64,000 nucleotides of DNA. It comes from Rhodoferax sp. (GTDB taxonomy: Bacteria > Pseudomonadota > Gammaproteobacteria > Burkholderiales > Burkholderiaceae_C). The position numbers and the translations under genes are program-made. This document shows, one piece after another, positions 39,728-52,554 of this stretch. Under the pieces are notes generated by a model, which was given only the letters and a program-made list of their open reading frames with translations, was not told the origin of the DNA and searched no databases. Each line of letters starts with the position of its first letter. Positions within the stretch are counted from its first letter, which is position 1. The stretch is from NCBI GenBank assembly GCA_030682475.1, contig JAUXOA010000074.1:1-64000 (forward strand). Direction: 5' to 3'.

Positions 39728-39822
39728 CCGTTCGCCCTGAGCTTGGCCTGTCCTGAGCTTGACGAAGGGTCGAAGGGTTGTCACAGCGCAAATGGACTTC
39801 GACAGGCTCAGCCCGAACGGGG
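39728..39822. repeat. Dispersed palindrome (CTTCGACAGGCTCAG family)
   Basis: CCGTTCGCCCTGAGCTTGGCCTG... (39729 on) and CTTCGACAGGCTCAGCCCGAACGG (39797-39820) form long, imperfect inverted arms, with GACGAAGGGTCGAAGGG between them. The same element is found inside icmF at 51624-51707. It belongs to a repeat family widespread in environmental proteobacterial genomes. Here it fills the recA–recX gap. Confidence 0.8.
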
Positions 39823-49134: not shown

Positions 49135-52100
49135 CTACATGTTTCTCCGGTACTGCCCGCCCACCTCAAACAAGGCGTTGGTGATTTGCCCTAGTGAGCA
49201 GACGCGCACGGCGCCCATCAGCACCTCAAACACGTTTTTGTTCTCGATCACCGCCTGCTGGAGTCGCTTCAGCATGGCAGGAGATTCTTTTGCGTGCAAG
49301 GCGTGAAAGTCCGCCAGCCGCTTGAGCTGGCTCTGTTTTTCTTCATCGGTGGAGCGGGCCAGTTCCAGCTTGTCCTGTACCGCATCGCCATGCGGGTTGC
49401 GGAAGGTGTTGACGCCGATGATGGGCAACTCACCGGTGTGTTTGAGCATCTCATAATGCATGGATTCGTCCTGAATCCGGCCGCGCTGGTAGCCGGTTTC
49501 CATGGCCCCCAGCACGCCACCGCGCTCCGCGATGCGCTCGAACTCCAGCAGCACCGCTTCTTCCAGCAGCTCGGTCAGCTCCTCGATGATGAAGGCGCCC
49601 TGGGACGGGTTCTCATTCTTGGCCAGGCCCCATTCGCGGTTGATGATGAGCTGGATCGCCATGGCGCGGCGCACCGAATCTTCGGTCGGCGTCGTGATGG
49701 CTTCGTCAAACGCATTGGTGTGCAGGCTGTTGCAGTTGTCGTAGATGGCAATCAGCGCCTGCAGCGTGGTGCGGATGTCGTTGAACTGGATTTCCTGCGC
49801 GTGCAGGCTGCGCCCGCTGGTCTGGATGTGGTACTTGAGCTTTTGACTGCGCTCGTTGGCGCCGTATTTCTCCTTCATGGCCACCGCCCAGATGCGGCGT
49901 GCCACCCTGCCCATCACGGTGTATTCGGGGTCCATGCCGTTGCTGAAGAAGAAGCTTAAGTTCGGAGCGAAGTCGTCGATGTGCATGCCGCGCGCCAGGT
50001 AGGCTTCGACAAAGGTGAAGCCGTTGGACAGCGTGAACGCCAACTGGCTGATCGGGTTGGCGCCGGCTTCGGCGATGTGGTAGCCGCTGATGGAGACCGA
50101 GTAGAAGTTGCGCACCCGGTTGTGCACGAAGTACTCGGCAATGTCGCCCATCACCTTCAAGCTGAACTCAGTAGAGAAGATGCAAGTGTTCTGGCCCTGG
50201 TCTTCTTTCAGGATGTCGGCTTGCACCGTGCCGCGCACGTTTTCCTGCACCCATTCCCGAATTTTTTCCAGCTCGGTGTCGGTCGGCTCGCGGCCATTCT
50301 CCAGCTTGAATTTGTCGATGTTCTGGTCAATCGCCGTGTTCATGAACATGGCCAGAATGCTGGGCGCCGGGCCGTTGATGGTCATGCTCACGCTCGTTGA
50401 CGGGCTGCACAGGTCAAAGCCGCCGTACAGCACCTTCATGTCGTCCAGCGTGGCAATCGAGACGCCCGAGTTGCCGACCTTGCCGTAAATATCAGGGCGC
50501 GGGTCCGGGTCATTGCCATAGAGCGTGACCGAATCAAAGGCGGTGGACAGGCGTTTGGCCGCCATGCCCGAGCTCAGCAGTTTGAAGCGCGTGTTAGTGC
50601 GAAAAGCATCGCCCTCGCCGGCAAACATGCGGGTCGGGTCTTCGCCTTCGCGCTTGAAGGCAAAGGTGCCGGCGGTGTACGGATAGCTGCCCGGGACGTT
50701 GTCGAGCATCAGCCACTTCAAAATTTCGCCATGGTCTTCATATTGCGGCAATGCCACTTTGCGGATGGTGGTGCCGCTCAAGCTTTTGGAGGTCAGCGCC
50801 GTGCGAATCTCCTTGTCGCGGATTTTGACGACGTATTCGTCGCCGGCGTAGGCGGCCTGCATGGTGGGCCATTGCGTCAACAGTTTCTTTTCTGTCGCAC
50901 CCATATGCGCTTCGCGTTGCCCCGCCAGATCCATCACGGCCTGGTAGGCATTCGCCTTGTTCGGGTCGTCCAGCCTGAGCATGCGACCCGATTCACGCAA
51001 CTGCTGGATTTCACGCGCCAATTTGGCCTGGTTGCGCGCGCGCTTTTTGTAACTGCGCACGGTGTCGCTGATTTCGGCCAGGTAGCGGGTGCGCGCGGCT
51101 GGCACCACCGGCGTCTGGTTGGTGCTGTGGCGCACGTTCACGCTCGGGAGCAGGGAAGGCGTCAACTTCAGTCCCAACTCCGCCAGACGAACGATAAGCG
51201 CGTGGTACAAGGCAGTAACCCCGTCGTCGTTGAAACGCGCCGCCATGGTGCCGAACACCGGCATTTGGTCTGCCGGCGTAGTCCAGGCTTCCTTGTTGCG
51301 CTGCACCTGTTTGGCGACATCGCGCAGGGCATCCAGTGAACCCTTGCGGTCAAATTTATTGATCGCCACAAACTCGGCAAAATCCAGCATGTCGATTTTC
51401 TCTAACTGGCTGGCGGCGCCAAACTCAGGCGTCATGACGTACAGCGGCACATCCACATGCGGCACGATGGCCGCGTCGCCCTGACCAATGCCCGAAGTTT
51501 CCACCACGATCAGATCGAAGCCCGCCACCTTGCAAGCGGCAATCACATCGGGGAGGGCCTTGCTGATTTCGGAGCCGAAGTCGCGCGTGGCGAGAGACCG
51601 CATAAAGACGCGCTGACCTGTATCCGTTCGGGCTGAGCCTGGCCTGTCCTGAGCCTGACGAAGGGTCGAAGCCTCTGGAAGCCCTTCGACAGGCTCAGGG
51701 CGAACGGCGATAGTTGCCCACGGCCCAATCGCGTTCATGCGGATGCGGTCGCCCAGCAGCGCGCCACCGCTCTTGCGCCGTGACGGGTCGATGCTGATCA
51801 CGGCCACACGCAGGCTGTCATTCTGGTCCAGGCGCAGACGGCGGATCAGCTCATCTGTCAACGAAGATTTGCCAGCGCCGCCGGTGCCGGTAATGCCTAG
51901 CACAGGCGTCTTTTTGGTGGCGGCCAAGGTCTGTACTTCCTGGACCAGGGCTGTAAACGACGCTTCGGGTGCACCTTTGGCCTCACCTGCCGCTTTTTCA
52001 TTCTCCAGCGCAGTAATAAGTTGCGCCAGGGCGCGCCAGCTCATTTCGCTGTGACCCTGAATGGCCGCGATCGCCTTGGGTGCGTAGCTGGAGATATCCT

Positions 52101-52554
52101 TGTCGCAACGCATCACCATCTCGCCAATCATCCCCGCCAGACCCATCTTCTGACCGTCTTCCGGGCTGAAGATACGAGCCACCCCATAAGCCTGCAATTC
52201 ACGAATTTCCGGCGCAACGATGACACCGCCGCCACCGCCAAAGACCTGAATGTGGGCACCACCGCGCTCTTTGAGCAGGTCCACCATGTACTTGAAATAC
52301 TCCACATGCCCGCCCTGGTAAGAGCTGATGGCAATGCCCTGCACATCTTCCTGCAAGGCGGCGCTCACCACTTCGTCTACGCTGCGGTTGTGCCCGAGGT
52401 GAATCACCTCCGCGCCCATGCTTTGCAAAATGCGCCGCATGATGTTGATGGCGGCGTCATGCCCGTCAAACAGACTGGCCGCCGTGACAAAACGCACCTT
52501 GTGCGTGGGACGGTAATTGGCAAGGGCCTTGTATTCGGCGGCCAGGTCGGTCAT
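49135..52554 (-). CDS. icmF: Fused isobutyryl-CoA mutase / G-protein chaperone IcmF
   Basis: A 1139-residue adenosylcobalamin enzyme. Residues 1-150 bind B12, with His32 in [11 protein letters not shown] as the cobalt ligand. A MeaB-type GTPase follows ([12 protein letters not shown], about 219-230), then the mutase substrate-binding barrel ([33 protein letters not shown]). IcmF interconverts isobutyryl- and butyryl-CoA and, in some species, pivalyl- and isovaleryl-CoA. About 28 residues (283-311: [20 protein letters not shown]...) come from an in-frame palindromic DNA repeat inside the GTPase domain. GGAGAC precedes the ATG. Confidence 0.93.
51624..51707. repeat. In-frame dispersed palindrome inside icmF
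   Basis: This 84-base element carries CCGTTCGGGCTGAGCCTGG on one side and CCCTTCGACAGGCTCAGGG on the other, the same family as 39728-39822. Its length is exactly 28 codons, so the icmF frame is kept. It replaces or extends the variable loop between RIRMNAI and [11 protein letters not shown] of the G domain. Confidence 0.9.

Follow-up and report, generated by a model that had tools for sequence, protein, structure and literature searches.

In-frame palindromic repeats at one loop of the IcmF G domain in a Rhodoferax genome and its relatives

The icmF gene and the palindrome within it

The window, a 64,000-nucleotide stretch of a Rhodoferax sp. draft genome, carries on its reverse strand icmF (49135–52554), the gene of a fused isobutyryl-CoA mutase with a G-protein chaperone domain, as assigned from its ORF, from Pfam and from a phmmer match to PDB entry 4xc6. 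The frame is free of internal stops across all 1139 codons, in agreement with the earlier note, and one chain holds the B12-binding, MeaB and MM_CoA_mutase domains, the combination of B12-binding, MeaB-type G and mutase domains that characterizes fused IcmF. The best solved relatives were the IcmF entries 4xc6 and 8ssl, and the closest named relative by icmF was a Rhodoferax ferrireducens isolate. In an alignment of 43 IcmF sequences, the P-loop and the switch III residues Q383 and K386 occupied invariant columns, and the P-loop, the GDRIR motif of switch I and the switch III Q/K pair are all intact.

Within icmF lies a palindromic element with two inverted arms, here called REP-A (51624–51707, reverse strand; 84 nt, or 28 codons). 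The element is a nested palindrome with the ends CCGTTCG and CGAACGG, in which we found two nested inverted repeats with 18-nt arm pairs (94% and 89% complementary); inverted-repeat analysis placed its inner arms at 51648–51665 and 51682–51699. Folded as RNA, the 84 nt are predicted to be strongly structured (−44.6 kcal/mol; z −4.6 versus 200 shuffles). A 29-residue reading spans the element, its first and last residues being common to the flanks, and the peptide is likely translated, judging from the open frame. The phase in use gives the more hydrophilic product, with a GRAVY of −1.03 versus −0.60 for the other open phase.

REP-A occupies a variable loop of the G domain (51607–51726, reverse strand; residues 277–316, from NAI to FMRSLAT). 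Between NAI/NAM and FMRS the loop measures 40 aa in the window versus 9 aa in 17 empty sites of the same genus, which read like GPWRQGPRV. The net gain is 31 aa for a 28-codon repeat, so about three codons come from the flanks. The earlier note had claimed an in-frame repeat adding exactly 28 codons; the repeat itself was confirmed by ORF, palindrome and alignment, and the relatives bear out an insertion with 28 repeat codons, but the site as a whole is not a clean gain of that length. In the IcmF of Cupriavidus metallidurans (4xc6), the domain order is the same and both protein halves align closely, whereas the loop is without insertion: the alignment breaks off at chain residue 290 and picks up again at 293.

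The loop lies directly on the C-terminal side of the GDRIR motif that ends switch I. By alignment, the last arginine of this motif (R272) is the counterpart of MeaB R108, and REP-A starts about ten residues later, at residue 283. PMC10481361 describes switch I of MeaB as residues 92–108, with R108 paired to switch III of a neighbour. AlphaFold2 gave pLDDT values below 50 for residues 278–312, between a helix and a strand, and the loop is predicted to be disordered; the whole-protein model was mediocre (mean pLDDT 65.4, pTM 0.58) and was used solely for this point.

We estimated dN/dS of icmF at 0.054–0.073 against four relatives without the insertion, and at 0.049–0.085 in three control pairs in which both sites are empty. 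Strong purifying selection acts on the gene, which is therefore not decaying, and the suggestion that the element is tolerated holds up. A search of a plasmid collection returned two matching records, an Ideonella icmF, in which the match falls next to the element, and a stretch from Variovorax that matches REP-A itself.

REP-A across the source genome

The REP-A core CTTCGACAGGCTCAG occurred in 38 exact copies in the genome, versus 0 for a reversed control pattern; with up to two mismatches there were 151 matches versus 5, and with one position allowed to be A or G there were 81 copies. When nine relatives of the same genus were searched with the A-or-G pattern, the core was absent from eight (G006, G010, G024, G032, G030, G016, G013 and G034) and present twice in G012; REP-A therefore seems to have spread recently, after the lineages split. 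The element takes the form of single arms of about 22–29 nt and of pairs of about 50–120 nt. From a catalogue built on 100 of the 151 core matches with up to two mismatches, we obtained at least 128 unique core sites in at least 81 clusters, both singles and pairs. Short palindromes present in many copies, as singles and as inverted pairs, are what defines REPs in general. A second pair in the window (39728–39820) lies in the spacer between two ORFs that we take, from their translations, to be recX-like and recA-like.

Coding context was called with a crude codon score rather than a gene caller. Among the matches listed, 37 of the 81 clusters lay in frame in an ORF and a further 7 were in frame with a stop; 22 had a non-coding side, 13 were tandem or shifted and 2 stood between opposite genes. 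Of the 37 in-frame calls, five were removed: two close to an N-terminus, one at the start of an ORF and two that lacked a repeat peptide. This left at least 32 internal in-frame copies in at least 28 proteins under this crude calling. Each of the 28 hosts among the matches listed has at least one Pfam family; they include UvrA, UvrD, RecG, RecJ, MutL, LigA, PolA, Tex, restriction-modification proteins and IcmF, together with two class I tRNA synthetases, glycine dehydrogenase and a 2-oxoacid dehydrogenase E2. Two in-frame copies each were present in LigA (L201), Tex (L053/L054), a pyridine-nucleotide oxidoreductase (L050) and a helicase that is presumably HrpA-like (L001). Repair proteins by Pfam (UvrA, UvrD, RecG, RecJ, MutL, LigA and PolA) account, as a raw count, for 7 of the 28 hosts among the matches listed.

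The copies are read in a preferred phase. Among the matches listed in the source genome, 27 of 28 in-frame left-arm copies, a count that includes two N-terminal copies and one at an ORF start, were in the VRxExVE phase (binomial p 2e-7 under equal use of the two phases); the single exception was the copy at an ORF start, in the other stop-free phase. Lengths divisible by three were found in 13 of 23 in-frame and 8 of 27 other two-ended copies, an excess that was not significant (Fisher p 0.085). We also observed tandem duplications of about 21 nt that join a REP-A end to adjacent host codons, for example PPSVRPEPPSVRPELVEG (L054 near 1470–1560, L173 near 1470–1550 and L042 near 1480–1530), perhaps through slippage at the hairpin.

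A transposase next to REP-A was considered and rejected: the draft genome contains three Y1 genes, none directly flanked by REP-A, and the REP-A pair nearest to any of them is about 770 nt off, beyond another ORF. The arrangement of RAYT-mobilized repeats, a Y1 gene flanked by the same REP, is accordingly not seen for REP-A in the draft, from which such a gene is possibly missing. Two of the Y1 genes (L010 and L011) lie, by eye, beside other repeat-like stretches (GTCATTCC-like and GTAGGTCGG-like). Inspection by eye for exact GTAG or CGTC tags at the REP-A ends and 12-nt flanks of in-frame copies revealed none, and REP-A thus shows no sign of the unpaired tetranucleotide at one end that distinguishes the GTAG and CGTC superfamilies.

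Repeats at the IcmF loop and at other loops in relatives

The IcmF protein was matched in 46 of 60 relatives, some through related mutases alone. Where a long loop was found within the genus, in the four relatives G012, G034, G016 and G013, it holds a different repeat in every case, REP-B, which also occupies the loop of a Polaromonas genome and reads APTLAAAR..LPPEGA; an Ottowia genome carries REP-A. An unrelated insertion of equal length in relatives, which the earlier note had named as evidence against its reading, is found in part: unrelated insertions are present at this loop, but many of them are themselves repeats (REP-B).

We extended the search to 399 genomes of the family, covering loop lengths of 12–133 nt in two lists in which no common genome was seen. 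The loop was recognized in 229 genomes, 27 with 73–133 nt and 202 with 12–71 nt. The 27 long loops held REP-A in six, REP-B forward in five, REP-B reverse in five, putative REP-C in three and other sequence in eight, the last without a recognized repeat; REP-A or REP-B thus fills 16 of the 27. Five long loops without a recognized repeat (L083, L085, L133, L146 and L148) are rich in Ala, Gly and Pro, and loops of this kind may be decayed repeats. Putative REP-C (L260, L261, L262 and L275) has a motif in common and the same phase in 4 of 4 loops; no further copies were found in 347 fetched loci, and in the three loops that were measured exact arms reached at most 6 nt. Because further copies and long arms are lacking, REP-C does not enter the main counts.

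Loops with REP-A or REP-B are 29 to 47 residues long. Genome-wide, 9–163 REP-A cores were present in the six genomes of the family whose icmF loop holds REP-A, and the exact REP-B core was present in 1 to 73 copies in 13 of 14 REP-B genomes counted. The remaining one, G142, has 0 exact REP-B cores and 123 REP-A cores, although its loop is REP-B-like, and G364 contains 85 REP-A cores yet has a 19-residue loop without REP-A. Filled and empty loops occur within one genus (G296 versus G364 and G090; G265 versus G172; G088 versus G213 and G294), as do different repeats (G314 and G132). Near-identical loops in close pairs (G012/G034, G307/G373, G397/G166 and G311/G129) indicate that some carriers hold inherited copies.

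None of the 172 icmF sequences searched, 121 of which span 1080 codons or more, showed a repeat insertion outside the loop. Repeat-motif matches outside the loop numbered 19, versus 8.8 per codon-shuffled set, and were rejected as insertions: 18 lie in conserved IcmF sequence, 14 of these at one ELTELVEEA-like stretch, and the remaining match precedes the gene start.

Recurrence was evaluated on a FastTree phylogeny of IcmF with the loop excluded, comprising 139 of the 172 sequences (after removal of duplicates, short sequences and the majority of the shortest-loop outgroups). A change was called forced when required by branches with SH-like support of at least 95 in FastTree, without bootstrap, and parsimony changes may include losses. 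REP-A, at seven tips, required 7 changes, all 7 forced; REP-B forward required 10 (5 forced), REP-B reverse 4 (4 forced) and putative REP-C 3 (3 forced). REP-A and REP-B together thus account for 16 forced changes (7 + 9).

Phase in the loop was constant for REP-A (7/7), REP-B reverse (6/6) and REP-B forward (10/10 with a recognized core, an eleventh loop, L255, being set aside for lack of one). Within the loop, insertion points are offset from one another by multiples of three; the repeat begins 7, 10 or 13 nt after the TGG codon for REP-A and 0, 3, 9 or 12 nt after it for REP-B forward. These variable start positions argue against a sequence-specific target, and a fixed target motif was rejected, as both insertion points and flanks vary.

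LigA repeats the IcmF pattern at a second loop. In the source genome, an 84-nt REP-A follows IPLSLDA; among 23 readable same-genus relatives, 18 have 9 aa at this loop, two have 15 aa and three carry REP-B (G030, G008 and G004). A genome of another genus, G088, has half a REP-A in the same loop, within an ORF of 713 codons; the remaining LigA loops that could be read in this search came from 16 genomes and measured 9–19 aa. Since LigA behaves alike, the simplest reading is tolerance of certain loops and not a speciality of IcmF. We also observed that a linker of PolA varies among aligned relatives, with REP-A in the source genome and a different repetitive insert in G012 (L287).

Interpretation and relation to known repeats

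We consider it highly probable that mobile palindromes land often and that the copies which survive are in frame, free of stops, hydrophilic and placed in tolerant loops. On this explanation, REP-A would be a non-autonomous palindromic repeat, presumably mobile, that has spread through the Rhodoferax-like genome, and one paired copy of it landed in the IcmF loop joining the post-switch-I helix to the next strand. Reading frame and fold would survive because the copy is 84 nt long, stop-free in its phase, hydrophilic and in a flexible loop, with the addition of a 28-residue disordered peptide. Selection against the other phase, stop codons and buried sites could leave the survivors in a common phase. 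Repeated filling by unrelated repeats, REP-A and REP-B in both orientations, would make the IcmF loop a standing permissive site.

We favour a near-neutral effect of the insertion, because the repeat occurs in unrelated proteins, unrelated sequences occupy the loop and short loops predominate. A peptide beside switch I, which together with switch III of a neighbour makes up the transient interface between G domains, could alternatively tune oligomerization, GTPase rate or cofactor loading and be kept by selection. The position keeps this explanation alive, as the loop comes after the residue aligned with MeaB R108, the arginine whose partner on the other side of the interface is switch III (alignment; PMC10481361), and repeat insertions in the 172 icmF sequences are confined to it. 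We nevertheless regard it as unlikely: the inserted sequences are unrelated, span 29 to 47 residues and are absent in sister species, REP-A is found in at least 27 other proteins of the genome, including a LigA loop also used in relatives, and 202 of the 229 genomes with a recognized loop have a short one. A broader variant, in which some loops of housekeeping enzymes are docking slots where unrelated palindromes are exchanged phase-locked like cassettes, the IcmF peptide being a recurrent, selectable modulator of G-domain oligomerization and cofactor loading, is doubtful, if slightly less so.

Three further explanations concern the origin of the shared position. A DNA target preference of the mobile element could account for one loop being used repeatedly, with a TGG codon seen before insertions; it is nonetheless quite improbable, given insertion points 3–12 nt apart, varying flanking letters, unrelated repeats in the loop and the absence of a TGG codon just before the LigA insertion of the source genome. 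Slightly less credible still is a single old insertion passed on by descent and then lost or replaced many times: near-identical loops in close pairs and the fact that parsimony changes can be losses are compatible with it, but all seven REP-A changes are forced at the support threshold, unrelated repeats share the site and the REP-A core is absent from eight of nine same-genus relatives. Repeats can mis-assemble, and the draft genome consists of 112 contigs; an assembly or binning artefact is nevertheless extremely improbable in view of the intact frame, the alignment of the gene on both sides and the presence of REP-A icmF loops on 2.57 and 5.25 Mb contigs of G314 and G270.

Rickettsia palindromic elements are known as in-frame insertions in a wide range of proteins unrelated to one another (PMC10969869 and PMC3733652). 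REP-A, with at least 28 hosts, resembles them in this respect, and the likeness proposed in the earlier note is supported as far as in-frame repeat insertion is concerned. The Rickettsia elements differ in being about 150 bp long (PMC10969869, available text) compared with 50–120 nt, in host, REP-A belonging to a betaproteobacterium, and presumably in sequence, judged by host and letters; here, moreover, unrelated repeats repeatedly enter one orthologous loop. In PMC3733652, REPs of the GTAG and CGTC superfamilies are described as occurring singly or as inverted dimers; most REPs are intergenic, but some lie inside ORFs, many of the latter in genes of DNA synthesis and repair. The paper also reports different REPs at about the same recB site in two Xanthomonas species. 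REP-A shares with these the short palindromes, the singles and inverted dimers and the frequent repair hosts (7 of 28 among the matches listed). It differs in its CCGTTCG/CGAACGG ends, with no GTAG or CGTC tag seen, in having 32 of 81 clusters internal and in frame (crude calling, matches listed), and in that recurrence at the IcmF loop is demonstrated on a tree.

Our literature search found no paper with the REP-A letters and no report of repeated independent capture at one protein site; a query for intragenic REPs gave nothing relevant, and one for REPs in Comamonadaceae no confirmed report. In-frame palindromes are known already; because the search gave no match, what seems new here is that unrelated repeats were captured time and again at one orthologous loop.

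These results suggest that particular loops remain open, over time, to peptides made from repeats. A single loop with two unrelated repeats (another type being putative), 16 forced changes and empty sister sites amounts to a natural replicated experiment in which mobile palindromes add peptide to conserved enzymes. The old claim that repeats seed protein evolution becomes testable on clean pairs, and the insertions provide natural insertion-tolerance maps for IcmF, DNA ligase and like enzymes.
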